The translations under genes and the position numbers were made by a program. Shown here in pieces: positions 804-49,628 of a DNA stretch of 64,000 nt (within the stretch, counting starts at the first letter, position 1; each line of letters begins with the position of its first letter). The DNA is from Saprospiraceae bacterium (GTDB lineage Bacteria; Bacteroidota; Bacteroidia; Chitinophagales; Saprospiraceae), in the NCBI GenBank assembly GCA_017987975.1, contig JAGNSQ010000002.1:7968-71967 (forward strand), read 5' to 3'. The notes below the pieces were generated by a model. That model ran no database searches. It was not told the origin of the DNA and saw only the letters and a list, made by a program, of their open reading frames with translations.

Positions 804-1563
804 TTATGATCTATTTATAACTTCAAAAATAAATAAAATAACACTGGCAGTGGCAGTCCTCTTCTGTTGGGTGGTCAATGGGGCTGCCCAGGAAGAAATC
901 ATCAATGCCAGCGAGATGACGTACAAGGAACCCTCTGACAAAGTAAGTATGATCACTTTTGGATTGGGTGGAATGACGCCTCAAGGGGCTTTTTCTAGAA
1001 AGCACCCCGATCTCATTTTTCAAATCAATTTGGGTTATTTGAGACAAATAAAGCCAGAAAAGCCCTTATTTGGCGGTATAGAACTGGGATATGGTATAAT
1101 GGATCAATATACAGCGGATATTGATTTTGTTGTTGAAGGTGAAACAGAAACCTGGGAGGTTATAAGTACCAGCCAGTTTTTGACCTTCGAACTCATTGGA
1201 AGGTACTATTTGCCGCTTAAAATCAATAAACTTGAATTTTTCAGCGAGTTTAATTTTGGAGGTAATTTATTTTTCACCACCACTACTTTTACACCTCCAG
1301 ATGCTGATGACAGCAGTGACACTGAATGGGAAAAATCAGATTTTTCCATGAAGTATGGCATTGGACTGGGCTGCAATTTTCCGGTTTCTGACAACATTTA
1401 TGTGCACGGGCGGTTTAGTTATATTGCCGGTTTATCAACAGCATATTACACATTGAAACCAGAAACCATTACCCTCCAGGATAGCACCATCGAAGCCTTT
1501 GACCTTCAAAAATCCACAACAGACGTTTTAAAGTGGGATCTAGGCGTTACCTTTGCATTTTAA
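787..1563 (+). CDS. Outer-membrane beta-barrel protein (porin-like), unknown substrate
   Basis: The product has 258 residues. A signal peptide ends near WVVNGAAQ, about residue 30. The rest alternates polar and aromatic residues typical of barrel strands (for example GGIELGYGIMDQY, FELIGRYYLPL, MKYGIGLGCNF), and the chain ends in WDLGVTFAF with a C-terminal phenylalanine, as in outer-membrane barrels. No specific function can be read. The ATG at 787 is preferred over a TTG at 784. The start lies head to head with the PLP enzyme gene, and the stop is 8 bases before the RluA-family gene, so the barrel gene probably leads the operon. It could also be a T9SS-associated PorT-like barrel; I cannot distinguish these. 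Confidence 0.7.
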   Translation: MLQLFIYDLFITSKINKITLAVAVLFCWVVNGAAQEEIINASEMTYKEPSDKVSMITFGLGGMTPQGAFSRKHPDLIFQINLGYLRQIKPEKPLFGGIELGYGIMDQYTADIDFVVEGETETWEVISTSQFLTFELIGRYYLPLKINKLEFFSEFNFGGNLFFTTTTFTPPDADDSSDTEWEKSDFSMKYGIGLGCNFPVSDNIYVHGRFSYIAGLSTAYYTLKPETITLQDSTIEAFDLQKSTTDVLKWDLGVTFAF

Positions 1564-1570
1564 CACCATA

Positions 1571-2641
1571 ATGACTTCAATCAAAATTTCAGACCTCGAA
1601 AAGCAGGACGATCTCTATATCCACGAACAAATTACAGTGGACAAAGGCCAACGGCCCTTAAGAATAGATAAATTTTTAATGGATCGATTGGACCAGGTCT
1701 CCAGAAACCGGCTGCAAAATGCCATCAAGGCATCCTGCATTCTGGTCAATGAAAAGGAAGTTAAAGCCAATTACAAAATAAAGGCCGATGATGTAATCTC
1801 CCTGGTTTTGCCACGGAATCCGGATGATATTGAAGTGTTAGAACCGGAAAACATACCCCTTGAAATAGTATATGAAGATGCCGATGTATTGGTCATCAAC
1901 AAACAAGCCGGCTTGGTTGTGCATCCGGGAGTTGGCAATCCAAGAGGCACCCTTGTCAATGCCTTGTTGTACCATTTTAAAGACCAAGCATTACCTGTAA
2001 TGCAAGGTAATACAGCCTCAAGACCCGGCCTGGTGCACAGAATCGACAAAGACACATCTGGTTTGATGGTGATTGCCAAAACCGATTTTGCAATGACCCA
2101 CTTGGCAAGACAGTTTTTTTACCATACTATTGAAAGGGAATACGTAGCATTGGTATGGGGAGAGCCGGATCAGGAAGAAGGAGTCATCACCGGACACATT
2201 GGCAGACACCCTACCCTACCCAAGCGATTTTATGTTTACCCGGAAGGCGATCAGGGCAAACACGCGATAACTCATTTTAAGGTATTGGAAAAACTATATT
2301 ACGTAAGTTTGGTCCAATGCGTTTTGGAAACCGGCAGAACCCATCAAATCAGGGTACACATGAAGTACAAAGGCAATACCCTTTTTAATGATTCAAGATA
2401 TGGTGGAGATAAAATTTTAAAGGGTACCATATTTTCAAAATACAAACAATTTGTAGAAAACTGTTTTACGGTTTTATCACGACAAGGGTTACATGCAAGA
2501 TTAATTGGATTTGAACACCCTACAACGGGAGAAAAGATGAGGTTTGAATCTCCTTTACCTGCCGACATGGCCAATGTTTTGGATAAATGGAGAGGATATG
2601 TAAAAAGTAGAAAAGAGACATTGAACGAAAATGAAGAGTAA
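1571..2641 (+). CDS. RluA/RluD-family 23S rRNA pseudouridine synthase
   Basis: This 356-residue cytoplasmic enzyme converts uridine to pseudouridine in RNA. An S4 RNA-binding domain comes first (LRIDKFLMDRLDQVSRNRLQ, about residues 30-50). The catalytic domain follows with HRIDKDTSGL at residues 156-165, where Asp159 is the expected nucleophile. The later motif GRTHQIRVHM is also present. Length and order match the RluD branch, but the modified position cannot be read from sequence. I chose ATG 1571 over the upstream in-frame TTG at 1553, which lies inside the barrel gene. The 3' end overlaps the LuxC-like start by 11 bases, indicating translational coupling. Confidence 0.9.
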   Translation: MTSIKISDLEKQDDLYIHEQITVDKGQRPLRIDKFLMDRLDQVSRNRLQNAIKASCILVNEKEVKANYKIKADDVISLVLPRNPDDIEVLEPENIPLEIVYEDADVLVINKQAGLVVHPGVGNPRGTLVNALLYHFKDQALPVMQGNTASRPGLVHRIDKDTSGLMVIAKTDFAMTHLARQFFYHTIEREYVALVWGEPDQEEGVITGHIGRHPTLPKRFYVYPEGDQGKHAITHFKVLEKLYYVSLVQCVLETGRTHQIRVHMKYKGNTLFNDSRYGGDKILKGTIFSKYKQFVENCFTVLSRQGLHARLIGFEHPTTGEKMRFESPLPADMANVLDKWRGYVKSRKETLNENEE

Positions 2642-3662
2642 TTTAACATTGTCTGCCAGAATTAAAGCGCTAGCTTTATTGGATGAAAAGCTGCGCTCTT
2701 TAGATAGTGATGAATGGCAATTGGTTATGGACGATGCCAAAGCCCGAAATGGGTGGTTTACGATACCATCGCAGATCCAGGCGCTGGCTGCTATCCGCGA
2801 AGACATGTTAGATGAAAAAAAACTGGAAGAATGGGTGAGGCCTTACCAGGATTTGGCAAGTAAGGAGCAAAAAAAAATAGGTTTGATCCTGGCAGGTAAC
2901 ATTCCTGCTGTTGGGTTTCATGACGTGTTGAGCTGCCTGATCAGCGGTCATTATGCTTTGATCAAAGCTTCAGATAAAGACAGCGTTTTGATTCATTATC
3001 TATTAAAATTACTTGTTGAAATAGAACCCGCTTTTGAGCACGAATTTGAGTTTACCGAACAGCTCAAAACCATGGAGGCTGTCATCGCTACCGGTTCAAA
3101 TAATACGGGAAGATACTTTCACACCTACTTTGACAAATACCCCAATATTATAAGAAATCACCGTAATTCTGTGGCCATTCTTACCGGAATGGAGAGTGAT
3201 GAAACACTTTATGCTATCGGTGCTGACATCTTTACCTATTTTGGTTTGGGATGTCGCAATGTTAGTAAAATATATGTACCAGAGGGATATAATTTTAATC
3301 ATTTGTTGGAAGTGTTGCATCAATACAAAGAAATTGTGTTGCACCATAAATACAAAAATAATTTCGATTACAATATTGCGTTATTTTTACTCAACAAAGT
3401 TCAATACATTAACAATGGGTGTTTAATATTATTGGAAGACAAAAGACTTGCTTCCAGAATAGCTTCCCTTCACTATGAATATTACGTTGAGCCCACATTG
3501 TTAGCAGAAAGATTAAAAGAAGATGCAGAAAATATTCAGTGCATAGTGAGCAGTGTGCAGATCCCGAACTTAGCCACCCTACCCCCGGGACAAAGTCAGC
3601 GACCAGCGTTAAGTGACTATGCGGATGGAACAGACACGCTCTCCTTTTTAAATTCACTTTAA
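2631..3662 (+). CDS. LuxC-like acyl-CoA reductase
   Basis: The 343-residue protein matches the acyl-CoA reductase (LuxC) family, which reduces fatty acyl thioesters to aldehydes with NAD(P)H. Visible family signs are the LILAGNIPAVGFHDVL segment near residue 85, the nucleotide-binding-like VIATGSNNTGRYF and GLGCRNVSKIYVP, whose cysteine is the probable acyl-accepting nucleophile. No luciferase genes are nearby. The gene sits between an RluA-type synthase and endonuclease III with overlaps on both sides: 11 bases upstream, and a TAATG stop/start downstream. A LuxE-like partner lies 25 kb away on the other strand (28487-29515). In Bacteroidota these genes probably serve lipid or fatty-aldehyde metabolism rather than light production; that part is inference. 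Confidence 0.82.
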   Translation: MKSNLTLSARIKALALLDEKLRSLDSDEWQLVMDDAKARNGWFTIPSQIQALAAIREDMLDEKKLEEWVRPYQDLASKEQKKIGLILAGNIPAVGFHDVLSCLISGHYALIKASDKDSVLIHYLLKLLVEIEPAFEHEFEFTEQLKTMEAVIATGSNNTGRYFHTYFDKYPNIIRNHRNSVAILTGMESDETLYAIGADIFTYFGLGCRNVSKIYVPEGYNFNHLLEVLHQYKEIVLHHKYKNNFDYNIALFLLNKVQYINNGCLILLEDKRLASRIASLHYEYYVEPTLLAERLKEDAENIQCIVSSVQIPNLATLPPGQSQRPALSDYADGTDTLSFLNSL

Positions 3663-4297
3663 TGAAGAAGAAGGAAAAAGCAGCTGAAATAGCCACGATC
3701 CTGACAGAGTTGTTTCCCGAAACACCTATTCCCTTGGAGCATAAAGATTCTTATACCTTACTAATCGCTGTTTTATTATCTGCACAATGTACTGATGAAC
3801 GGGTAAATAAAATTACGCCCATTTTGTTTCAAAAAGCGGACACACCCTTTAAAATGGTTGCACTAACCGTGCAGGAAATTGAAGACATTGTTAGGCCGTG
3901 TGGACTAGCCCCCAGAAAAGCAAGAGCCATTTACGAACTTTCTGCCATATTAATTGAAAAGTACAATGGTGAAGTACCTGGCCAGATAGAAGCATTAGAA
4001 GCATTGCCGGGAGTAGGCCACAAAACGGCATCTGTTGTTGTATCGCAGGCATTTGGGCAGCCTGCCTTTCCAGTTGACACCCATATCCACAGGTTGGCAG
4101 AACGCTGGGGCTTAAGTGATGGTAAAAATGTAGTAAAAACTGAAAAAGACCTCAAATCCTTATTTCCCAAAGAAAGCTGGAACCAATTGCATTTGAGAAT
4201 TATCTTTTACGGTCGCAAATATTGTCCTGCCAAGGCCCACCACATAGAAAAGTGCCCTATTTGTGTAAAATTTGGTAAAAAGCCAATAAAAAAATAA
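3662..4297 (+). CDS. nth: Endonuclease III (DNA glycosylase/AP lyase)
   Basis: This base-excision repair enzyme removes oxidised pyrimidines and cuts abasic sites. It has 211 residues, the family's usual length. The helix-hairpin-helix motif LPGVGHKTA holds catalytic Lys121 (Lys120 in E. coli), and VDTHIHR holds Asp139 (Asp138 in E. coli). The C-terminal iron-sulfur region is unusual: cysteines at 188, 198 and 201 (C-X9-C-X2-C) and no fourth cysteine before the end at 211, whereas E. coli uses C-X6-C-X2-C-X5-C. A cluster may be absent or differently ligated. The start codon shares one base with the LuxC-like stop (TAATG), so translation is coupled. Confidence 0.95.
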   Translation: MKKKEKAAEIATILTELFPETPIPLEHKDSYTLLIAVLLSAQCTDERVNKITPILFQKADTPFKMVALTVQEIEDIVRPCGLAPRKARAIYELSAILIEKYNGEVPGQIEALEALPGVGHKTASVVVSQAFGQPAFPVDTHIHRLAERWGLSDGKNVVKTEKDLKSLFPKESWNQLHLRIIFYGRKYCPAKAHHIEKCPICVKFGKKPIKK

Positions 4298-29515: not shown

Positions 29516-29562
29516 ATTCCACAGAGAAGGAGAAGGAACGGTTTAATATTGGAAAAAACTTG

Positions 29563-29570
29563 TAATTTTG
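29563..29570 (+). promoter_or_regulatory. -7 promoter box directly before a lipoprotein gene
   Basis: TAATTTTG (TAnnTTTG) ends only 8 bases before ATG 29579. If used, the mRNA would have a leader of very few bases or none. Confidence 0.45.
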
Positions 29571-29578
29571 AGATCGAC

Positions 29579-30064
29579 ATGAAAATCAATTTAATAAATA
29601 TATTCTTTATTACCTCTCTGGCAATTTGCTCTTGTGCAAAGGCACCAGAACTCTCAGAAACACCTGCGCTAACCCTGAACGGGATATCTAAGGAAAAAAT
29701 GAAAGCGGGATCGGTCAATCAAGACAGTGTCATACTCGATATCAAGCTTACAGATGGAGATGGTGACATTGGTTATGTAGATAAGGACAGCCGAAAGCCC
29801 GATATGTTTATCATAGATAAAAGGACCCAGCAACCCTATGATTCTTACATTCTCCCCTCCATACCCCAACAAGGCATCAACAACGGCATCATTGCTCAAA
29901 TGAAGGTCAAACTTTATACCCAATGTTGTGTGGTTAACCCTTGTGATCCAGATCCGGGTCAGGCAGATGAGGCACTACCCCTTGAACTTTATCTGGTTGA
30001 CAGGGCAGGTCATCGGAGTAACAGTCTGGAAATCAACCTTGTTTTAGAGTGTAAGAGGCAGTAG
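29579..30064 (+). CDS. Hypothetical lipoprotein
   Basis: The product has 161 residues. The signal MKINLINIFFITSLAICSC ends in a lipobox, giving an envelope lipoprotein. The mature part contains VILDIKLTDGDGDIGYVDKD, an acidic calcium-loop-like stretch common in small Bacteroidota lipoproteins, and a CCVVNPCDPDPG cysteine cluster. I do not recognise a function. ATG 29579 is chosen over TTG 29549 because it starts the signal peptide cleanly. It is divergent from the LuxE-like gene and lies upstream of the inorganic-carbon locus, but a functional link is not shown. Confidence 0.75.
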   Translation: MKINLINIFFITSLAICSCAKAPELSETPALTLNGISKEKMKAGSVNQDSVILDIKLTDGDGDIGYVDKDSRKPDMFIIDKRTQQPYDSYILPSIPQQGINNGIIAQMKVKLYTQCCVVNPCDPDPGQADEALPLELYLVDRAGHRSNSLEINLVLECKRQ

Positions 30065-30155
30065 TAAAACCAAATTATATTCTGTTTAATTGTCATTATT
30101 GGTTTTTTAACAAATAATTATCAATAAAAATGGTGGAAAACCAATACTTTGATAA

Positions 30156-30163
30156 TACATTTG
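30156..30163 (+). promoter_or_regulatory. -7 promoter box (TACATTTG) of the left small exported gene
   Basis: TACATTTG matches TAnnTTTG and is identical to the box of the right-hand small gene (38725-38718, minus). It ends 15 bases before TTG 30179 and 48 bases before ATG 30212. No -33 TTTG is visible at normal spacing. Confidence 0.5.
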
Positions 30164-30178
30164 TAAAGATTCACGATT

Positions 30179-30571
30179 TTGAGATTAAACGATCTACACG
30201 GTCATAGGGTAATGAGAGGACTCTTGTTGAGTCTTGCTCTCTTTTTGACGCTTGGTAATACGATCAAGCTGGTCAATCATTCCAAATCTGTTTTTGAATA
30301 TACCCAATATGCCAGTCACCCCCTTAAACATGCGGATAATAATCCTGTAAAGGGAATCCAGGGAGCGAAATACATCGAAATATCAGAAGTTGAAGTTGAG
30401 GCAGAAAATGAAGACCAACTCCATGATCTGCCGGGGTGGTTACCTCAAAATTCAACTCCATCCATACTACTATTATCTACAGGATTCAAATCAATAGTAG
30501 CAAGTGAAAGGGACATTCCTTCCCGTCCTCTTTTCCTACTTTACTGCCAACGCAAATATCATTTAGGATAA
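30179..30571 (+). CDS. Small exported protein heading the SulP side of the DAB locus
   Basis: The product has 130 residues from TTG 30179 or 119 from ATG 30212. A hydrophobic segment (MRGLLLSLALFLTLG) acts as signal or anchor. The C-terminal 60 residues contain KYIEISEVEVEAE, then an acidic stretch, and end with RPLFLLYCQRKYHLG. The protein encoded at 38315-38698 shows the same order (EYIELDESV ... LPLYTLFCQWRF), so the two appear to be diverged relatives. No known domain is recognised. It lies 87 bases upstream of the plus-strand SulP gene and is probably co-transcribed with it. I list the TTG start because the promoter distance and the partner's TTG-AGR start agree; ATG 30212 remains possible. 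Confidence 0.6.
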   Translation: MRLNDLHGHRVMRGLLLSLALFLTLGNTIKLVNHSKSVFEYTQYASHPLKHADNNPVKGIQGAKYIEISEVEVEAENEDQLHDLPGWLPQNSTPSILLLSTGFKSIVASERDIPSRPLFLLYCQRKYHLG

Positions 30572-30658
30572 TGTGATAACATCAGCCGCTTGAATATCAA
30601 GGGCTAAAATCTGAATTGGGCATTTACCCAAATTAATCACATTTATCATAATTTATAT

Positions 30659-32308
30659 ATGAGTACAAATCATAATATATCCAATCATGCCATGCCCAAA
30701 GACGGCTGGGAAGGCTTTAAAGAAAATTTTTCTACAGATGCAGTTTCCGGATTCATTGTCTTTTTATTGGCTTTGCCCTTAAGTTTAGGAATTGCCAAAG
30801 CATCTGATTTTCCCCCACTAATGGGGGTTCTCTCGGCCATCATCGGAGGTTTGGTAGTTAGTTTTTTAGCAGGATCCAGACTTACCATCAAAGGTCCTGC
30901 AGCAGGATTGATTGTTATTGTTGCAGGTGCTGTTTCTGAATTTGGAGGTGGAGAAAAAGGTTGGCATCTGGCTCTAGGGGCGATGGTGGTAGCAGGATTG
31001 ATCCAAATACTTTTTGGCATCTTCAAATTAGGGAAATTATCTGATTTTTTTCCACTATCGGCCATTCACGGGATGTTGGCTGCCATAGGTATCATCATAA
31101 TTGCCAAACAAATTCCAGTTCTATTGGGAGTTGATCCTGCCTTGAGTGCCGGTAAAGATCCTTTGGAGTTGATAGCAGAAATACCTCAATTCATAAAATC
31201 TATGCATCTCCAAGCTACATCTATTGGCGTCATTAGTTTGATAATAATGATGGGGCTGCCGATGTTAAGTAACAAATTACTAAAAAAAGTTCCTCTACCC
31301 CTGCTTGCTTTAGCGATAGCCATGCCATTGGCAGCTTATTATGGATTAAAGTACCAGGGACCCAGCTATTTAATGGTAAAGCTTGGGGATTTTATTGGAA
31401 GTATTCATCTCAATGCATCCATGGCAGGTATTTCGCAGCCAGGTATATTTGTAAAATATGTCATCATGTTTGCACTGGTTGGATCTTTAGAAAGTCTTCT
31501 TACAGTTAAAGCCGTCGATATGTTGGACCCTTATAAAAGGAAATCAAATAGCAATAAAGACTTGATTGCTGTTGGTATAGGAAATACTCTTGCGGCCCTA
31601 TTGGGTGGGCTTCCCATGATTTCAGAGGTAGCAAGGAGTAGTGCCAATGTCAACAGTGGCGCCAAGACCAGATGGGCAAATTTTTTCCATGGTGTTTTCA
31701 TACTTACATTTGTTCTACTGGCTAGCCCTTTAATAGAAATGATACCAAATTCAGCTCTTGCGGCCATGTTAATTACAGTAGGTATAAAGTTGGCGCATCC
31801 AAAAGAATTTGTGCAAACTTTCAAAATCGGAAAAGAGCAATTGGCCATTTTTCTTGTGACCATATTTTTTACTTTGTTAGAAGATTTATTGTTAGGAATT
31901 GCCGCCGGAATCACCTTAAAGCTAATTCTTCACCTATTCAGAGGAGCCCCCATTTCAGCATTATTTAAGGCCCCCATCGAGGTATCATTTGAAGGAGATG
32001 ATTACCTGGTATCTATTGAAAAGGCCGCTGTATTTTCCAATTTCATAGGCATTAAAAATCGTTTGCAGGAAATTCCACCAGGTTTCAATATTACCATTGA
32101 TTTGCATAAAACAAGATTTGTAGATCACTCTGTATTAGAGAATTTACATCATATTCAGCACGATTATGAAAACAGTGGAGGAAGGTTTCAGATTGTAGGG
32201 CTTTCAGATCACAAACCTATTTCAGAACACACTTTTGCAGCAAGAAAAAAAATCATGCAACACATCAGTCACAGAAAAAAAAGAACTAAATTTTTCAGCA
32301 AAATGTAA
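30659..32308 (+). CDS. SulP-family anion transporter with STAS domain
   Basis: The 549-residue inner-membrane transporter begins with a short cytoplasmic stretch, then has the SulP core (VSGFIVFLLALPLSLGIAKAS at about 30-50, and LAGSRLTIKGPAAGLIVIVAG) and about 12 to 14 helices. A C-terminal STAS domain (about residues 435-540) contains FNITIDLHKTRFVDHSVLENL. SulP members carry sulfate, bicarbonate or other anions; members near carbonic anhydrases or DabA are thought to move bicarbonate. Here the dabAB genes on the opposite strand make bicarbonate plausible, but the substrate is inferred. It converges with the second SulP gene across a bidirectional terminator. Confidence 0.88.
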   Translation: MSTNHNISNHAMPKDGWEGFKENFSTDAVSGFIVFLLALPLSLGIAKASDFPPLMGVLSAIIGGLVVSFLAGSRLTIKGPAAGLIVIVAGAVSEFGGGEKGWHLALGAMVVAGLIQILFGIFKLGKLSDFFPLSAIHGMLAAIGIIIIAKQIPVLLGVDPALSAGKDPLELIAEIPQFIKSMHLQATSIGVISLIIMMGLPMLSNKLLKKVPLPLLALAIAMPLAAYYGLKYQGPSYLMVKLGDFIGSIHLNASMAGISQPGIFVKYVIMFALVGSLESLLTVKAVDMLDPYKRKSNSNKDLIAVGIGNTLAALLGGLPMISEVARSSANVNSGAKTRWANFFHGVFILTFVLLASPLIEMIPNSALAAMLITVGIKLAHPKEFVQTFKIGKEQLAIFLVTIFFTLLEDLLLGIAAGITLKLILHLFRGAPISALFKAPIEVSFEGDDYLVSIEKAAVFSNFIGIKNRLQEIPPGFNITIDLHKTRFVDHSVLENLHHIQHDYENSGGRFQIVGLSDHKPISEHTFAARKKIMQHISHRKKRTKFFSKM

Positions 32309-32391
32309 ATTGTAACATCACTCAATCCAGATGTTCACCACATAAAAATTATCCATAGCCTACTAAATAATAGTTGTTGTGGTTCACAAAA

Positions 32392-32455
32392 AAAAGGAAG
32401 AGAACAATACTCTATCAATAAACTTTTTCCAACAGAGTCTTGTTTTCTTCCTTTT
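32392..32455. terminator. Bidirectional terminator between two convergent SulP genes
   Basis: The arms 32392-32413 and 32434-32455 are reverse complements at 20 of 22 positions, with a 20-base loop. An A-run precedes the left arm and a T-run ends the right arm, so the hairpin could stop transcripts from both directions. It occupies most of the gap between the two SulP stops. Confidence 0.75.
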
Positions 32456-32470
32456 AAAGATAAAAATTAT

Positions 32471-33781
32471 TTATCCGGAAATTTCATCACTTTGCACCAC
32501 TTCAAACTCCTCTTCAGCATCCACCATATTGACATATTTTTTAGCAAGGAAGAAAAAGATGGTTCCTGTCACAACAGCGATGTTCAAATCCCATAAAATG
32601 GTAACAAGGGTTGAGTAAATAATAAATATCAATTGTAAGTTTCTGTTTTTAACAGCTGACCAATTGTTTTTGAAATAAGCATTTACAAAGTCCCTATCAA
32701 TTACATCCAGACCCGCTTTAAACAGAACCCCAACAAATACAGCTGAGGTAATCAGGGTAATATAGTGACTGAAGACAAGGAAGCCAAGTAAAGCAAATAA
32801 ACCAACTAAAACACCCGCCAATCTTGTTTTTGCACCTTCTTTCAAAAGTAAAACACTACGGATTGTTGCTTGCGCACCCGGAATGCCTTGAAGCAATGCA
32901 GAAGCACCATTGGCCATGCCCTGAGCTATAAGTTCTTGTTCTTGTTTTGTTTTTTCACCTGTCATTTTATCGATTACCAAACTCGTTAATAATGAATCGA
33001 GATAGGCAAGCAGGGTTAACTGTAGAGCATAGGGTAATGCCAGTTTTATATTTTCACTTGTCAACAATTCTGGGCTGGAAGGAAAATAGTTTTTGAGCAT
33101 AGCCACAAATTCCCCAAAACTTCCGACAGTATTACCAAGACTCACATGTTCAACATCAAGATGCATAGCTGTTGTTAGTACTGTGCCCAAAATGATAGTG
33201 ACAAACATAGATGGAACAAATTTTCGCACTTTCTCAGGCAATCCGATCCATTTTAGAATATGAGGTATCAGATAAATTGTGCCCAGTGTTATTAAAGCTA
33301 CTGCAACATTAGTAGTCAGGCTACCACTTATTTGCGTTTTATCTCCCAAGCCAAAAAGCCTTTTGATCTGATCCGCCCAAATCAATAAGCCAATACCATT
33401 CATAAATCCAAGAATGATAACTTGAGGAACAAATCGGATGAGCTTACCCAGTCGCAATAAGCCGGTCAAAACGAGTATTGCGGCATTGAGAAGAAATATT
33501 AAAGTAATAAATTGTTCCGCTATTGTCTTGTCAGGGAAATGTTCATAGGCAAAAGCAACTACTAAGGCAGATACAGCCGTCATAGGTGCAGTCGGGCCTG
33601 AGGCCTGAATTCTGGTTCCTCCAAAAGTGGATGTAATCAAAGGTATGATTGCCGCACCAATCATGCCCGCAAAAGCTCCCCTCCCAGACATAGTGCCAAA
33701 TGCAGCTCCTAAGCTCAAAGCCGCAAAGCTTACAGTAAGGCCACTGATCAAATCATAAATAAACGTATTTTTTGTTTGCAT
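32471..33781 (-). CDS. SulP-family anion transporter without STAS domain
   Basis: The 436-residue inner-membrane transporter has the SulP opening LISGLTVSFAALSLGAAFG and the substrate-site block GGTRIQASGPTAPMTAVSAL. About 12 helices follow, and the chain ends with a short acidic tail (VDAEEEFEVVQSDEISG) in place of a STAS domain. It lies 29 bases downstream of dabB on the same strand, so dabA-dabB-SulP form one operon. Bicarbonate, sulfate or sodium-coupled transport are all possible; the context favours inorganic carbon. It is only distantly similar to the 30659 SulP, so it is not a recent duplicate. Confidence 0.85.
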   Translation of the reverse strand: MQTKNTFIYDLISGLTVSFAALSLGAAFGTMSGRGAFAGMIGAAIIPLITSTFGGTRIQASGPTAPMTAVSALVVAFAYEHFPDKTIAEQFITLIFLLNAAILVLTGLLRLGKLIRFVPQVIILGFMNGIGLLIWADQIKRLFGLGDKTQISGSLTTNVAVALITLGTIYLIPHILKWIGLPEKVRKFVPSMFVTIILGTVLTTAMHLDVEHVSLGNTVGSFGEFVAMLKNYFPSSPELLTSENIKLALPYALQLTLLAYLDSLLTSLVIDKMTGEKTKQEQELIAQGMANGASALLQGIPGAQATIRSVLLLKEGAKTRLAGVLVGLFALLGFLVFSHYITLITSAVFVGVLFKAGLDVIDRDFVNAYFKNNWSAVKNRNLQLIFIIYSTLVTILWDLNIAVVTGTIFFFLAKKYVNMVDAEEEFEVVQSDEISG

Positions 33782-33810
33782 AAAGATTGATTTACTAAGT
33801 GATTACATTA

Positions 33811-35679
33811 TTATGAGGATCTTAGTGAGGTTTCATGGTATGTTTTAATATGGGGCCCCAGAAAAATTCTTGCATATAGTCGTACCAATGAAATACCTGT
33901 AACCACAAAACTTAAGGTTACACATATTGCCAGGAAAAGCTGTTGATATTGAATATGGGAGAAAACAAGATCAACTCCAATAAACGTTGGTGTAATCGGA
34001 AAGCCCATCAATCCGAGACATGCCAGTAGGAAAAGTAATGCCTTACCGGGATATTCATGAATATGGCCATAAAAGCCATTTAGATCAATCTTCCCTTCCT
34101 TATTCTTTAGCATGTTCAAAATGATGTATCCCAAAATTCCGGCAAAGACAGCTCCACTTACATAAATGATGGATTCTTTAAAAGAAAAGGTTCCGTTGAA
34201 AGCAACAGCAAGCGTTGTCCATAGATATTGCATAATAATTAACACCCATGATAAGAGAGGGCTTTTTCTCTCGGAAAAAGATTTAAAGACCATCAGCAGA
34301 CCTATAAAAGCACAAATTCCAGGCAAGTAGGCATGCGCCAACTGAGATTGTATACCAAAATACCAAATATACAGCCCCCCCAAATACAAGGGAATAAAAA
34401 TTGAAATCACCACATTAACAGAAAGAAAATCCAGTTTCTTCCCGATATTTTTTAAAGTTTGCCAAACTAAAATATCCATGACCTTATCCAGCATAAATTC
34501 TTTCATGCTTAACAAAAACAATGCATACTCTACTCTCTTAGGCCATGAATCTTCGAAAGTGTCTTTTCTGGGAGAAAAATTATAAAATTGCTCTTTTATC
34601 AAGTAACTAACTACGGATGGAGATACCAACAATTGATAAGTTCGGAGGAAGGCATTACCCGCAAAATGGAAAAGTGCTAGGTATTCAAAACCGAGGGAGA
34701 TCTCAATAAACATAATACCTATCTGGGCTGCAGAACTGTACGCTATCTGGCTTTTTACGGATGCCTGGACCCTGGCAATCAAAGTGCAAATGACAGCGGT
34801 AAAAACACCACAAAGGGCAATAAGGATGCGAATCAAAATCTGGTGCTCCCAAAATGGAAAAGTGCGCAGTAAAAGAAAGACGCCTAAATGAACTGAAAGA
34901 GATCCATAAAAAATTGCGGATGAAGGCGTAGGACCTTCCATGGCCCGAGGAAGCCAAGACGAAAAAGGCAGTTGTGCAGACTTAGCCGCTGCCGCCAATA
35001 AAAACATTATTGATATAAATAAACCTATTGCACTTTGGCTTTCTAAATGATGATGCACCAGTTCATTCTGCTGCAGCAGGATAAAAGGTATGTTTTCGTG
35101 CCATAATAAATGACTTGCCCACATGGCAAGAACGATACCTACATCCCCAATCCGATAGACTGAAAAGACCTTAAGCGCATTTTTAACCGGGAGATATCTG
35201 TCGCGATAAAAGGCAATTAGTAAAAAGGATGAAAGTCCTAAAATTTCCCAACCAATAAACATTGTTTCCAGATTACCAGAGATGACAATGATATTGTACC
35301 CTGTAAAAAAGAACAAAATCGTATTAAAAAAGCGTTTATATCCCTTATCTCTATGCAGATATACTCTACTATAAATTGTGACTAAAAAAGTTAAAAAAGA
35401 GCCTACCATTAAAAAAGTTGCTCCCACTTCATCAAAATATAAATCTATATAAAACTCGTATCCACTATTTGCATAAATAACAAATTCTTTTATGTTAAAA
35501 GAATTGGCACCACTATACAGCCACCAAAAAATAAAAATTAAACTAGAGGCAAAATGCAAGCCGGAAGTTAAAAAAGTAATACCTGAAATTACCTTTTCTC
35601 GCTCTGAAGGGATGAAAAGACTTAAAATAAAACCTGTCAACGGGCCTATAATAAAAAGGGGCAATAGTTGATATAACAT
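33811..35679 (-). CDS. dabB: DabB, membrane subunit of the DAB inorganic-carbon uptake system
   Basis: The 622-residue protein is related to NuoL/MrpA antiporter subunits: FIGWEILGLSSFLLIAFYRDR, AKSAQLPFSSWLPRAMEGPTPSSAIFYGSL and KSQIAYSSAAQIGIMFIEI are the equivalents of the nuoL blocks at 21513. It is not a second complex I gene, because it is directly fused in an operon with dabA and far from nuo. In the DAB system DabB is thought to use the proton gradient to drive DabA-catalysed conversion of CO2 to bicarbonate inside the cell. The ATG overlaps the dabA stop by one base (TAATG), indicating coupled translation. Confidence 0.88.
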   Translation of the reverse strand: MLYQLLPLFIIGPLTGFILSLFIPSEREKVISGITFLTSGLHFASSLIFIFWWLYSGANSFNIKEFVIYANSGYEFYIDLYFDEVGATFLMVGSFLTFLVTIYSRVYLHRDKGYKRFFNTILFFFTGYNIIVISGNLETMFIGWEILGLSSFLLIAFYRDRYLPVKNALKVFSVYRIGDVGIVLAMWASHLLWHENIPFILLQQNELVHHHLESQSAIGLFISIMFLLAAAAKSAQLPFSSWLPRAMEGPTPSSAIFYGSLSVHLGVFLLLRTFPFWEHQILIRILIALCGVFTAVICTLIARVQASVKSQIAYSSAAQIGIMFIEISLGFEYLALFHFAGNAFLRTYQLLVSPSVVSYLIKEQFYNFSPRKDTFEDSWPKRVEYALFLLSMKEFMLDKVMDILVWQTLKNIGKKLDFLSVNVVISIFIPLYLGGLYIWYFGIQSQLAHAYLPGICAFIGLLMVFKSFSERKSPLLSWVLIIMQYLWTTLAVAFNGTFSFKESIIYVSGAVFAGILGYIILNMLKNKEGKIDLNGFYGHIHEYPGKALLFLLACLGLMGFPITPTFIGVDLVFSHIQYQQLFLAICVTLSFVVTGISLVRLYARIFLGPHIKTYHETSLRSS

Positions 35680-38195
35680 TATAATTCTTCTTTTAACAAA
35701 TAGACTGGGAATGAATTTTCACTAGATTCAATTAAGGCAGTTAGGTTATTGGATATAAGAGGTTGGGTGTATAAGCTTTCATACACTTCAAACTTACCTT
35801 TGTTGTACAAATACTGGATGCCATTGTCAGGATCGACGACAACCAGAAATATCCATTTATTGAAAAACCACTGACGGGTAGCAGGATTTGCCAGCAAAAC
35901 TTTATTAACGATTTCAGGTTTTTGCTCTACAATGACCAATAATCGCATTGGGTCATGAATTTCTATCATTTGTTCCGGTAAGCCAGGCCTCAAATCACCA
36001 TCAATGCCGTTGGCTACCCCAAAAAGTCCCATCACATTGTGCGCCAGTTTGGTGCCTGCTCCCAACCGTAAATTATCCATCCTTGAAAAATAGTATTCCA
36101 AATTGATACCCCCACAAACCGGGGCCACTGCATTTAAAATATTGGTAAGGTACTTGCCATCCGGGTCAATCCTATAATCATATGAATTCATAAAAGCGCG
36201 GCGATCCAGAAACAAGCCTCTGCTGAGTGAACGTCTGCCAACAATGCACAAACAGTTGGTGGCATGATTGAGTTCTGGTCTTGGCTCGAACAAGCTAACA
36301 GAGCGCCTTTTAACCTTTTCATGGATTTGTGCCGGAGATTGTTTTGTATTGATTAATTCAAACCTTCTCGACCTCTCTTTCGCATTTAAGTGCAGTGCAG
36401 TTTGAAAGGTTTTTTTATTCTTATCATGTAAGAGTGCCTGAGATTGTGACAGCAATTGTTCATCATAAAATACAATTTCATCTCTTGACGTATCATGCAA
36501 AGCACCCATAAAAAGAGTGGTTTCCGGAATATTTAACCCTCTTTCTGACAACAACTTTCTCACCTCTTTGTGATTGGCCATTTTGCAAATTACTCTGGCA
36601 TTAACTGAGCCCGGTCGACCACTACAGGCACCACAATCGTATCCAGCATAATGGGTATTGTTCACGCTGGTAGAACCATGTCCAACAACATACACCAAGG
36701 GAGCAAAATTATACGTCAGTCCTATACTTTTAAGTAACCCTTCTACTCTGTCGGCCATTTCAACCGGTTTGAATCCAAGCTGCAGATGATCTTCTATTGG
36801 ATTATTTTCATCAAATTCATAACACAAATCTGCTTCTTTATCCATATGCCTGAATGATAAACTTGTGGCGGGGCTTACGGATGGTTTTAGTATATTGGCT
36901 GCCAGTCGCAAAGCAGACCAAAATCCCAATGTCTGGGATATAAGCCAGCCCCAAAGAAAAGAGTGGCTGTGTTTCGTAAAATGCACATCCGTTTTGCGGT
37001 TAACTTTTTGACTAATTTCTTTGACCAGAAATTTAGGTGATAAAGGGGCAGGGCAAACTTTTGTATGAAACTTACCACCTTCCGGCTTAAAATAAAATTC
37101 AACATTAAAGAAACCGGCAGTGCCATAGGTTCTTGAATATTGATCGAGTTGTTCAATGTATCGCCTTAAGGAACACTCTCTATCATCTATACAAAACAAT
37201 GCCTGAAACGAGGACAAATCGGGTCTGTTTTCTGATACCTTTTTCAAGTAATTGAGTCCTCCTAACACCTGGTCAAAGTAAGACCATTCAAATGCCATTT
37301 GCCACAACCTTAAAATTTCCTGAACTTCAGTGTGTTCTGTCTTTTCGAACAAATGTTCTTTTCCAGCAGGCAGGTGATGAACCAAAGGGGCCCAGATAGG
37401 GCCAAATTTGTTATCAAGAGCATCAATTTCAAGCAGCAATTCAAATAAAATCAAGCCTCTTAAACGAATCTTTTTATAACTTATAAGTGTTTCCGGGCTT
37501 TCTTCCACTTTTGCAACCAGGCCTGACCAACCTGGATGCGCAAACTGTTGGTCGAAAAGATAATGTTCATACCATCTTTCATCTCCTACGAGTATTTTCA
37601 AAAGATCTGCAATAGATGTTTCTTGTGCCAACAACAGGTTTCTGGCTCTCTCTGTTTTAAAAATACTTACAAGACCATTCTTTTCAATTTCACGCACTGA
37701 GTCGATAAACCCTTTTTCAGTGTTGGGGAAATGCCTAATGGCAATACCCTGATCTAAATAGCTGCAAAGGATCCTAAAAAGCACCGGATGAATTTCCAAA
37801 TCCAGATCAATACGATATGATTTCTTCCAAAAAGATCTGATCTCACCGATGCGTTGAGTTAATTCAAACTTATAATTACCATTAATCATGGCATTTTTCC
37901 AAAAATCACCATCAGCTACTTTCTCTCTTTGAAGAATCTGGGCAATTACGTCTTCATTGATTCTTCCCTCTTTGAACATCTTTCGATACTCTTCCAATGA
38001 AAAAGTAACCTTGTATCCAAAAATCTGGGAAGCCATTTGAATGCCTTCAAAAAAGTCAGAATCCTGAAAGGCATGCAAAGTATTGTGATGAATAAAGTCC
38101 TTTAAGGGTGCCTGTGAGGGCAAAAAGTGTTTTAATTTGTGCAAAGTATCTTCCTCCGAAAATACAACACCGGGTGCTAATGCATCTCTTACCAT
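35679..38195 (-). CDS. dabA: DabA (DUF2309), carbonic-anhydrase-like subunit of the DAB inorganic-carbon uptake system
   Basis: The 838-residue protein belongs to the DUF2309/DabA family. Zinc-site residues match the published pattern: Cys335 and Asp337 in FCIDDREC, His506 in VVGHGSTS and Cys521 in GYDCGACSG. The spacings (2, 169 and 15) are close to those recalled for Halothiobacillus DabA (C351, D353, H524, C539). No signal peptide or clear membrane helices are seen, fitting a cytoplasmic subunit bound to DabB. It acts in vectorial CO2 hydration to bicarbonate. The gene lies 119 bases downstream of the right-hand small exported gene. Confidence 0.9.
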   Translation of the reverse strand: MVRDALAPGVVFSEEDTLHKLKHFLPSQAPLKDFIHHNTLHAFQDSDFFEGIQMASQIFGYKVTFSLEEYRKMFKEGRINEDVIAQILQREKVADGDFWKNAMINGNYKFELTQRIGEIRSFWKKSYRIDLDLEIHPVLFRILCSYLDQGIAIRHFPNTEKGFIDSVREIEKNGLVSIFKTERARNLLLAQETSIADLLKILVGDERWYEHYLFDQQFAHPGWSGLVAKVEESPETLISYKKIRLRGLILFELLLEIDALDNKFGPIWAPLVHHLPAGKEHLFEKTEHTEVQEILRLWQMAFEWSYFDQVLGGLNYLKKVSENRPDLSSFQALFCIDDRECSLRRYIEQLDQYSRTYGTAGFFNVEFYFKPEGGKFHTKVCPAPLSPKFLVKEISQKVNRKTDVHFTKHSHSFLWGWLISQTLGFWSALRLAANILKPSVSPATSLSFRHMDKEADLCYEFDENNPIEDHLQLGFKPVEMADRVEGLLKSIGLTYNFAPLVYVVGHGSTSVNNTHYAGYDCGACSGRPGSVNARVICKMANHKEVRKLLSERGLNIPETTLFMGALHDTSRDEIVFYDEQLLSQSQALLHDKNKKTFQTALHLNAKERSRRFELINTKQSPAQIHEKVKRRSVSLFEPRPELNHATNCLCIVGRRSLSRGLFLDRRAFMNSYDYRIDPDGKYLTNILNAVAPVCGGINLEYYFSRMDNLRLGAGTKLAHNVMGLFGVANGIDGDLRPGLPEQMIEIHDPMRLLVIVEQKPEIVNKVLLANPATRQWFFNKWIFLVVVDPDNGIQYLYNKGKFEVYESLYTQPLISNNLTALIESSENSFPVYLLKEEL

Positions 38196-38314
38196 AATTT
38201 ATAGCAATAAAAAAAGAATTGAATCCTTTAAAGTAAAAAACGGAAAATCGTAAAATTGTGAAAAAGTCAAACCAGAAACAGCATGACTTAATGTATACTC
38301 AATACGAGCATAAT

Positions 38315-38698
38315 TTATGTGAGAGAGGTACTATCGAATCGCCATTGACAAAAGAGAGTATACAATGGCAATTGCAAAAATTGATCAATAGATAAATAAC
38401 ATCTATGATAATCTGAAAGTGGGATTAAGGTACTTGTAACAACAGATGTTAGCTTACTGTGAGGAAGTTCATCATCTACTGATTCGTCAAGTTCAATATA
38501 TTCACATAATGAAGCAAATGCATCCAGCTTCGTGTTAGGAAAAAGGCAATCAGATCCTTTTTTCAGTAAAATTTCTGAACCTCCTGTAAGAGAACCACCA
38601 TTGGTAAATTCTAAATGGCTCCCGGATGCAGCAGCGCTTTGAATCCCTATTAGTAGAAATAAGAAATATTTAAAAATAATATTTATCAATACCCTCAA
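38315..38698 (-). CDS. Small exported protein heading the dabAB operon
   Basis: The 127-residue protein has an N-terminal signal/anchor (MRVLINIIFKYFLFLLIGIQSAAA). Its mature part carries SLCEYIELDESVDDELPHSK and ends with QLPLYTLFCQWRFDSTSLT. The YIE-acidic-...-PL-LFCQ order is shared with the small protein at 30179-30571. No named domain is recognised. A stop codon lies immediately upstream in frame, so the gene must start at TTG 38698 or later; there is no ATG near the signal peptide. A complete -33/-7 promoter lies just upstream, supporting real expression. The two small genes bracket the dabAB/SulP locus, suggesting a shared envelope role. Confidence 0.6.
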   Translation of the reverse strand: MRVLINIIFKYFLFLLIGIQSAAASGSHLEFTNGGSLTGGSEILLKKGSDCLFPNTKLDAFASLCEYIELDESVDDELPHSKLTSVVTSTLIPLSDYHRCYLSIDQFLQLPLYTLFCQWRFDSTSLT

Positions 38699-38717: not shown

Positions 38718-38746
38718 CAAATGTAATTAAATTTAAATATATCAAA
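38718..38746 (-). promoter_or_regulatory. Promoter of the small exported gene/dabAB (TTTG-N17-TACATTTG)
   Basis: On the minus strand TTTG (38746-38743) precedes TACATTTG (38725-38718) by 17 bases, an exact fit to the Bacteroidota -33/-7 pattern. The -7 box ends 19 bases before TTG 38698. The surrounding 38699-38830 gap is very A/T-rich with nothing else called. Confidence 0.7.
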
Positions 38747-48086: not shown

Positions 48087-49628
48087 CTACAGCGGAATAT
48101 TGCCGTGTTTTTTAAATGGTCTTACCACTTTTTTATTGGCCAACATTTCAAATGCTCGAATGAGTTTCTTTCTGGTTTCAGAAGGGGCAATTACTTCATC
48201 CACAAAACCTCTACCTGCTGCTCTGTATGGGTTGGCAAACTTCTGTTGGTATTCTGCTTCCTTCTCAAGAAGTTTTGCCTCAGGGTTTTCAGCACTTAAA
48301 ATTTCTTTCTTAAAGATAATTTCACTGGCTCCTTTAGCTCCCATCACAGCAATTTCTGCGCTTGGCCAGGCATAGTTAAGGTCTGCCTTAATGTGTTTGC
48401 TGTTCATTACATCATAGGCACCCCCATAGGCCTTTCGGGTGATTACCGTGACTCTGGGTACGGTTGCCTCACTAAACGCATATAACAATTTAGCCCCATT
48501 TGTGATAATAGCATTCCACTCCTGGTCGGTACCTGGCAAGAATCCGGGAACGTCAACCAACACCAATAACGGGATATTAAAACAATCACAAAACCTCACA
48601 AATCTGGCTGCCTTTTTACTGGCATTTACATCCAAAACGCCAGCCAGATCCTGGGGTTGATTGGCTACAATACCTATGCTTCTGCCGGCCAACCGGGCGA
48701 AACCCACCACAATATTTTCAGCATAATGTTCGTGCACTTCAAAAAATGAATCCTTATCGCTTAGTTCTACAATTACTTCTTTAATATCATATGGAGTTTG
48801 GGATGAAGCCGGTATGATTTTATTCAAAGCAGGCCTACATTCATCTGCAACGGTATAGGGAACTAAAGGGGTAGTTTCTTTGTTGTTTTGCGGAATGTAG
48901 GATAGAAGCGTCCTGATTTTTCGGATGGCATCCAGATCATTATAGGCCGTCAAATGGGCCACCCCACTCTTTTTTGCGTGGGTCATGGCTCCTCCTAATT
49001 CCTCAGAAGTTACATCCTCGTTGGTCACCGTTTTTACCACATTGGGACCCGTCACAAACATGTATGAAGTATTTTCCACCATCATAATAAAATCAGTGAT
49101 GGCAGGCGAATAGACAGCACCTCCTGCACAAGGTCCCATAATAGCGCTGATCTGAGGGATTACTCCTGATGCAACGGTATTTCTGAAAAAAATATCGGCA
49201 TAGCCCCCCAAAGAATTGACCCCTTCCTGGATCCTGGCTCCTCCCGAATCGTTGAGTCCGATGACCGGAGCGCCGTTTTCCATGGCCAAATCCATTATTT
49301 TACAAATTTTTTCGGCATGGGTTTCGGACAGCGAACCTCCAAAAACAGTGAAATCCTGGGCAAAAACATAAGCCAGCCGACCATGAATCTTGCCATAGCC
49401 CGTTATGACCCCATCGCCCGGAAATTGCTGGGTTTCCATTCCAAAGTCAAAGGAGCGATGCTCTTTGAGCATATCCAGTTCTTCAAACGACCCGGCATCA
49501 AGTAAGAGTTCCAAACGCTCTCGTGCCGTTAGTTTTCCTTTTTTATGCTCTTTGTCAATTCTTTCCGTTCCTCCTCCTAATTGGGCGAGTTCTTTTTTGT
49601 CCCGAAGGGCATTCAGCAGGTCTTGCAT
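48087..49628 (-). CDS. Acyl-CoA carboxylase beta (carboxyltransferase) subunit, propionyl-CoA type
   Basis: The 513-residue crotonase-fold carboxyltransferase moves CO2 from biotin to an acyl-CoA. The biotin/CoA-site blocks are [37 protein letters not shown] and, in the C-terminal half, [26 protein letters not shown] and [14 protein letters not shown]. Length and sequence fit the propionyl-CoA carboxylase beta group rather than bacterial AccD. The biotinylated alpha partner is not in the window. It uses bicarbonate, as do other anaplerotic carboxylases, a possible consumer of the DAB product (inference only). Confidence 0.92.

Follow-up and report, generated by a model that had tools for sequence, protein, structure and literature searches.

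A locus in the window analysed here, a 64,000-nt stretch of contig JAGNSQ010000002.1 from a Saprospiraceae bacterium (assembly GCA_017987975.1), on balance probably encodes an inorganic-carbon supply module of a heterotroph, in which each transcription unit is headed by a small gene that acts in cis through its nascent peptide. The locus comprises dabA and dabB followed by a SulP-family transporter gene (SulP2), a second SulP gene (SulP1) that converges on them, and two leader genes, sm1 and sm2, at the outer ends (Table 1). The window is part of a 107-kb contig in a 3.63-Mb draft genome that is 90.85% complete. A preliminary description of the window had already noted small exported genes at both outer ends; they are present, with start sites that we have corrected and with export predicted from hydropathy only, and they read better as cis-acting leaders than as subunits of a transport complex.

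The products of sm1 and sm2 each combine a hydrophobic N-terminus with an acidic middle, and neither matches a Pfam or NCBIfam model. For sm1, the in-frame ATG at 30212 is a likelier start than the TTG at 30179. Similar same-strand leader open reading frames (ORFs) of 87-160 aa, mostly 105-147 aa, occur across 53 neighbourhoods of Bacteroidota dab loci, which represent the long DabA matches among those listed from a class-wide sample of 247 genomes. With the window included, the leader lies directly 5' of dabA in 28 cases, of a SulP gene in 15 and of an accompanying outer-membrane gene in three. Most leaders have a hydrophobic N-terminus and a net-acidic middle. They are not one alignable family: BLASTP at 1e-5 leaves most of them apart, and the part that they have in common is the tail only. 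One BLASTP cluster (C12) consists of four leaders with the class-2 tail described below. Three further small ORFs, located 5' of dabB (L032, L034 and L035), have no hydrophobic segment and are of another kind.

The shared end, which we call the class-1 tail, is a gapless stretch of 11 residues, P-[LI]-[YF]-[LI]-x-x-[RC]-x-[LF]-[RK]-[IV], learned from 37 leaders; these are what remained of 49 rows once L032, L034, L035, L078, L079 (a duplicate of L077) and seven class-2 ORFs had been dropped. Scored by leave-one-out against a background made of the ends of 727 other ORFs in these loci (95th percentile, 4.9; 99th percentile, 9.3), 34 of the 37 leaders lie above the 95th percentile and 28 above the 99th. 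Outside the training set, an exported ORF upstream scores above the 95th percentile in 41 of 66 named loci and above the 99th in 19, with the qualification that taking the best-scoring candidate per locus inflates these scores somewhat and that the background may contain further leaders; the 66 are those left of 80 loci after removal of six duplicates and eight loci in which dabA was not parsed. Flavobacterium loci have the tail PLYDLFCNWKFHLS or one close to it, near the PLYTLFCQWRF and PLFLLYCQRKY of the window. Across the last 16 codons of the leaders, pN/pS is 0.25 (pS 0.68, pN 0.17), as compared with 0.64 for the first 40 codons and 0.74 for the middle (22 leaders in seven groups of close relatives, giving 34 non-independent pairs). 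This substitution pattern indicates that the tail is selected as a peptide. Since the constrained parts of a leader are the export signal and the 11-residue end, it resembles an arrest peptide and not a structural subunit.

Of 85 leaders, 56 have the pattern TAnnTTTG, which we take to be the core of the Bacteroidota -7 type promoter, in the 150 nt 5' of their start, as compared with 5 of 85 for the reversed pattern. Its distance to the start codon is often 12-35 nt, and it precedes both leaders of the window. Ordinary co-directional genes of the same loci have it in 118 of 616 cases (reversed control, 60 of 616), and the gaps that separate leaders from transporter genes have it in 1 of 84 (reversed control, 6 of 84). 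Because the promoter core stands before the leader and almost never in the gap, the transporter genes appear to share the transcript of the leader.

Table 1. Features of the dab-SulP locus (positions are those of the window).
Feature	Position	Strand	Details
-7 type promoter core (presumed) before left leader	30155..30162	+	TACATTTG
Left leader, sm1	30212..30571	+	119 aa from ATG 30212; 130 aa from TTG 30179
Class-1 tail of sm1, PLFLLYCQRKY	30527..30559	+	Followed by three residues, then stop; leave-one-out score 15.8, above 99th percentile
SulP1	30659..32308	+	549 aa; PF00916, 219.5 bits; weak STAS-like C-terminal part
Bidirectional terminator-like stem-loop	32392..32455		16 + 5 pairs; flanking A and T runs
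SulP2	32471..33781	-	436 aa; PF00916, 173.6 bits; BicA-like membrane domain, no STAS
dabB	33811..35679	-	622 aa; NuoL-like membrane subunit; Proton_antipo_M/N
dabA	35679..38195	-	838 aa; PF10070; DabA2 chain 9rd0_A
Right leader, sm2	38315..38698	-	127 aa from TTG 38698
Class-1 tail of sm2, PLYTLFCQWRF	38336..38368	-	Followed by six residues, then stop; leave-one-out score 7.1
-7 type promoter core (presumed) before right leader	38718..38725	-	TACATTTG

Just 5' of the left leader, at 29549-30064 on the forward strand, is an exported ORF that is lipoprotein-like by eye and has no Pfam match.

By sequence, the dab genes of the window are those of a DAB complex, and accumulation of inorganic carbon is predicted for them. 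DabA scores 718.9 bits against PF10070 in Pfam, over profile positions 2-747 of 747, and matches the solved DabA2 chain 9rd0_A with an E-value of 1.7e-60 (phmmer). C335, D337, H506 and C521, presumably the zinc ligands of DabA, are invariant across an alignment of 10 Bacteroidota DabA proteins, and the four residues that the preliminary description assigned to the zinc site are in place. It was right, too, about the coupling of dabA to a NuoL-like dabB: the stop codon of the one and the start codon of the other overlap as TAATG, and DabB has Proton_antipo_M/N matches in Pfam. DabB matches the solved DabB2 chain 9rd0_B (E 4.4e-29) and is matched more strongly by NuoL/NdhF chains, of which 6hum_F is the best (E 1.9e-43).

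SulP2 begins 29 bp after dabB and is, as had been described, a SulP protein without STAS: in Pfam it has a Sulfate_transp match only, and none to STAS. Its best solved relative is chain 6ki1_A (E 5.5e-40, aligned over residues 10-392), which we take to be the membrane domain of BicA and which its depositors named 'Low affinity sulfate transporter'. Of what we assume to be the sodium-site residues of BicA, SulP2 keeps the Asp and the Thr; the glycine is Arg. Neither protein reaches the equivalog cut-off (880 bits) of the NCBIfam BicA model NF050096, SulP2 scoring 174.2 and SulP1 135.6 bits, and the closest solved chains for SulP1 are sulfate and mixed anion carriers. The convergence of SulP1 on SulP2 stands as described; its STAS-like part is weak, with an STAS_2 match of 21.4 bits that falls under the curated Pfam cut-off of 29.2. 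We consider bicarbonate a likely SulP substrate. The 162 nt between the two SulP genes have folding energies of -38.6 and -42.2 kcal/mol, one for each strand, and contain the terminator-like stem of Table 1, in agreement with the bidirectional terminator of the preliminary description.

The host genome has a third SulP unit (L085, contig C2), in which a predicted leader of the exported type (999-1289; 96 aa, ending in QPPELA, class 2) is followed by a SulP gene (1480-3093) and a beta-carbonic anhydrase gene (3119-3796). Three beta-carbonic anhydrase matches were found in the genome, two of them with identical scores; the identically scoring pair (C2:59472-59927 and C203:12613-13068; L221 and L222) lies on different contigs and is perhaps an assembly duplicate. 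A search of the draft genome, 90.85% complete, gave no match to the RuBisCO large subunit, consistent with the absence of RuBisCO from the preliminary description. The gene at 48087, which had been put forward as an anaplerotic carboxylase that the locus might feed, encodes a carboxyl-transferase subunit (PF01039) that is not clearly anaplerotic, and nothing was found that ties this protein to the dab locus.

Across the class-wide sample DabA occurs in 56 of 247 genomes, as against 85 of 99 genomes for the far commoner SulP family. DabA is missing from the two genomes of the same family and the five of the same order that were listed, so its presence in the host is patchy. Among the 53 dab neighbourhoods, 52 have a dabB match and 36 have a SulP ORF of at least 400 aa (38 with partial tblastn matches included); in two other genomes (L069 and L076), counterparts about 60% identical to SulP2 lie directly 3' of dabB. 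In nine of the 53 loci, ORFs about as long as a carbonic anhydrase gene fall into the SulP-carbonic anhydrase group, and of these the ORF in L058 was confirmed by Pfam; one such ORF, in L038, is really a SulP gene cut off at the contig end. Three SulP proteins in dab neighbourhoods are 721-734 aa long, a size that may fit a carbonic anhydrase fusion. Because the pairing of DAB with SulP recurs, a single inorganic-carbon module in the window is well supported. Recurrence thus strengthens the preliminary proposal of such a module, which loses its novelty: DAC/MpsAB-type genes have already been described in heterotrophs (PMC13144422, PMC6689103), with Bacteroidetes among the phyla that have MpsAB homologues (PMC6689103). 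DAB in a heterotroph is therefore not new, and the dab and SulP gene content of the window is not surprising.

Several dab neighbourhoods also contain genes for outer-membrane-type proteins, in two clusters: C3 (e.g. L040:11262-12614) in 16 of 53 loci, where the single scanned member matched nothing in Pfam, and C4 (e.g. L037:6159-7037) in 12 of 53, with DUF2490 in the one member scanned. These are possible porins for inorganic carbon. At the start of NZ_SMMU01000006.1 (L134), a contig titled Azotobacter chroococcum, is a Bacteroidota-like DabA that is 57% identical to that of the window, reflecting either contamination or transfer.

The class-1 tail is also found beyond CO2 uptake. When the 247 genomes were scanned with a DNA pattern that covers the tail and its stop codon, 24 matches in 20 genomes came up; the raw count is no evidence, since the reversed pattern gave 18 among the matches listed. 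Fifteen of the 24 matches end an exported ORF of 111-195 aa (the ORF context was looked up for the true pattern only). Two of these ORFs precede SulP and two precede dabA, and these four (L167, L168, L182 and L186) were already in the motif training set; three, of 126-138 aa, lie before genes whose products resemble RND periplasmic adaptors by eye (L172, L173 and L189); and eight encode Cys-rich proteins. The two Cys-rich proteins that were scanned are both HYC_CC_PP proteins (NCBIfam NF047658; E 9.6e-15 and 1e-10), a family found in 76 of 119 genomes of the class. The family has no match in the host genome, and neither sm1 nor sm2 matches its model up to an E-value of 0.1. The motif trained on dab and SulP leaders lies above the 95th percentile in 18 of 29 HYC_CC_PP proteins read, where one of 30 loci was not parsed and L218, which gave an evidently wrong ORF, was scored as a miss. 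The genes after HYC_CC_PP (L191-L220) are by eye often CusA/CzcA pump-like and sometimes TonB receptor-like. In L076, a second class-1 leader near the dab locus precedes a CitMHS-type gene that is NhaD-like by eye.

Some leaders have a different end, the class-2 tail PP[EDPN], seen as PPE, PPD or PPP. It is present in 7 of 15 small ORFs before SulP, compared with 4 of 1450 background ends, and in none of 28 before dabA. Another SulP sample had class-2 tails in 7 of 29 loci, one of which (L250) comes from a place already in the first set; L234, L238, L239, L241, L244, L247 and L250 have small exported ORFs with TPPPE-, TPPPN- or CPPD-type tails 5' of SulP. Because PPP, PPE and PPD are strong ribosome-stalling sequences, class 2 supports a nascent-chain reading. 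No leaders were found before the highest-scoring SulP genes (L224-L233, 10 loci). SbtA, the sodium-bicarbonate transporter, was considered as a further leader target and rejected: none of 30 Sbt loci gave a clear leader and one gave a weak candidate (L256, at the position of L078), and for this reason an early hint at L078 was dropped.

We propose the following mechanism for the window. DabAB would convert CO2 to cytosolic bicarbonate, with the flow of ions through DabB as the driving force. Bicarbonate or a related anion would be the cargo of the SulP carriers, or at least of SulP2, which is BicA-like. Both transcription units would open with a cis-acting leader gene, with the promoter 5' of the leader, and the leader peptide would be exported during its own translation. 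The acidic, freely evolving middle could then span the distance from translocon to ribosome, such that the 11-residue tail would sit in the exit tunnel as the ribosome reaches the stop codon, and would slow it there. A ribosome slowed at the leader end would allow expression of the downstream gene, either because the start of that gene stays open or because termination is blocked, and the ribosome would be released by fast export or by a condition that is sensed. The mechanism may be based on Rho or be of another kind. More generally, we see an even chance that the common stop-proximal tail is an exchangeable module and a new class of ribosome-arrest sequence, through which a nascent exported protein gates its own transporter operon. 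In this reading the module stands behind exported heads that differ by target, being acidic before CO2/bicarbonate transporters and containing Cys/His before metal-type genes.

Two features of the RNA around the leaders speak for the proposal. Junctions between leader and downstream gene are more structured than ordinary ones, with a mean z of -2.28 (n = 75) as compared with -1.27 for 90 sampled ordinary controls (p = 1.1e-4); the two junctions of the window have z of -2.36 and -0.89. Pairing of the downstream start with the leader end is 0.167 (n = 80) versus 0.097 (n = 245; p = 3.6e-4), and overall pairing of the downstream start is about the same at leader junctions (0.500) and at ordinary ones (0.494).

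A number of points weigh against the proposal. The start-leader end pairing is not significant in the 70-120-nt gap bin (p = 0.057) and is almost nil at the two junctions of the window (0.05 and 0.00), and unmasking of the downstream start is for this reason unsupported there. Leader gaps show no enrichment of intrinsic terminators, which occur in 11 of 84 of them (versus 52 of 280 ordinary and 32 of 77 convergent gaps), and on these counts we reject attenuation at an intrinsic terminator. The right leader has no ATG near its start, such that a TTG start has to be assumed, and the score of its tail, between the 95th and 99th percentiles, is moderate only. Among the 66 named loci outside the training set, 21 have no leader candidate. 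Our percentile and p-value statements ignore kinship between sequences. Lastly, the class-1 tail is unlike any stalling sequence known to us.

The small genes could instead encode stable periplasmic or membrane accessory proteins, with the tail serving as a contact strand or as a C-terminal signal recognised by, for instance, a PDZ protein. Such an extra component would have a parallel in DAB1, which carries an additional small hypothetical membrane protein (PMC13144422), and a motif that ends exactly at the stop codon, as it does in 64 of 78 scored leaders, resembles a C-terminal ligand. We nonetheless think this rather unlikely: the ORF precedes whichever gene heads the unit, be it dabA, SulP or an outer-membrane gene; the same tail ends proteins before metal-type genes; there is little constraint outside the tail; and promoters stand 5' of the leader but hardly ever 3' of it. 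Moreover, three and six residues follow the motif in the window leaders, which makes recognition of a free C-terminus a poor fit. The greater structure of leader-gene junctions would also be expected if the leader RNA regulated, as a riboswitch or other structured 5' region with a fortuitous ORF, but the amino acids of the tail are kept where synonymous changes are saturated, and background ORF ends lack the tail, which on these sequence comparisons leaves a purely RNA-based control very improbable.

A separate objection concerns the transporters. The SulP proteins may carry sulfate or other anions and merely lie beside dabAB, with no joint carbon module; SulP substrates are unreadable from sequence, and the solved relatives of SulP1 and the unreached BicA cut-off would both fit such a role. 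We judge this unlikely given the frequency of SulP ORFs in dab neighbourhoods (36 of 53), the presumed BicA chain as the best solved relative of SulP2, and the beta-carbonic anhydrase genes 3' of SulP in the third SulP unit of the host and in L058.

To our knowledge, how inorganic-carbon uptake is sensed and set outside cyanobacteria is largely open. If each unit of the locus is indeed headed by a cis-acting nascent-peptide leader, a nascent exported peptide would set DAB and SulP expression in many Bacteroidota, instead of or besides a transcription factor, and this would be the first nascent-peptide control of inorganic-carbon uptake within the literature searched. The tail before metal-type genes would unite scattered, unnamed small proteins into one readable signal class, and would offer a quick way to spot transport operons under such control in Bacteroidota genomes.

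The transport genes themselves resemble known systems. As in DAB/MpsAB complexes, the DabA of the window spans the full Pfam length and keeps the presumed zinc residues, the DabB is NuoL-like and the two genes overlap translationally; the window differs in having SulP2 right after dabB, a converging second SulP gene and an exported leader for each unit. SulP2 aligns with the presumed BicA chain over the residues given above but lacks a STAS domain and falls far under the NCBIfam BicA cut-off.

The leaders have their closest parallels in SecM, MifM, VemP, the RAPP group, CutF and CruR, which share an exported first ORF, a spacer and a conserved end (PMC10987492, PMC12992588, PMC9973294, PMC9426467). 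In these systems, slowing of the ribosome at the leader end either makes the next start site accessible, as in SecM and CutF, or keeps Rho from acting, as in CruR (PMC10987492, PMC9973294, PMC9426467), and RAPP arrest peptides precede genes of diverse function (PMC12992588). The four anatomical features used to recognise arrest peptides in PMC10987492 are all present in the window leaders, namely an unannotated small upstream ORF, an N-terminal signal or membrane segment (here from hydropathy), a spacer of more than 30 residues and a conserved C-terminus; we infer ribosome arrest itself from this anatomy. Like the Bacteroidota NAP-stop and NSP-stop groups among the Sec/YidC arrest peptides (PMC10987492), the leaders end at or near the stop codon, but they have a tail sequence other than those of these arrest peptides, they precede genes for ion and metal transport rather than protein localisation, and they are known from sequence alone. 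CutF and CruR, which respond to copper, are likewise small exported first ORFs of transport operons with a spacer and a conserved C-terminal end (PMC9973294, PMC9426467), whereas the window leaders precede CO2/bicarbonate transporters and lack a proline-rich or RAPP end. The CxxC or CxxxC metal site of CutF/CruR (DUF2946) is absent from the sm1 and sm2 translations, which have no Pfam match to it, and an R-A-P-P-like end is absent from the class-1 tail; class 2 has PPE, PPD or PPP.

CutF-like proteins are reportedly common in Bacteroidota (PMC9973294) and may include the HYC_CC_PP proteins. The latter resemble the window leaders in export, length and a stop-proximal tail common to many members, and differ in having a Cys/His-containing middle and PP before the tail; the window leaders miss their model. 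The literature searched, which was available in part and has most subscription journals outside it, yielded neither a mention of HYC_CC_PP nor a paper in which leader or arrest peptides are described for DAB or SulP. Against this background, three things are new: the class-1 tail itself, its occurrence in both metal-type and CO2 leaders, and the presence of leaders on inorganic-carbon operons.

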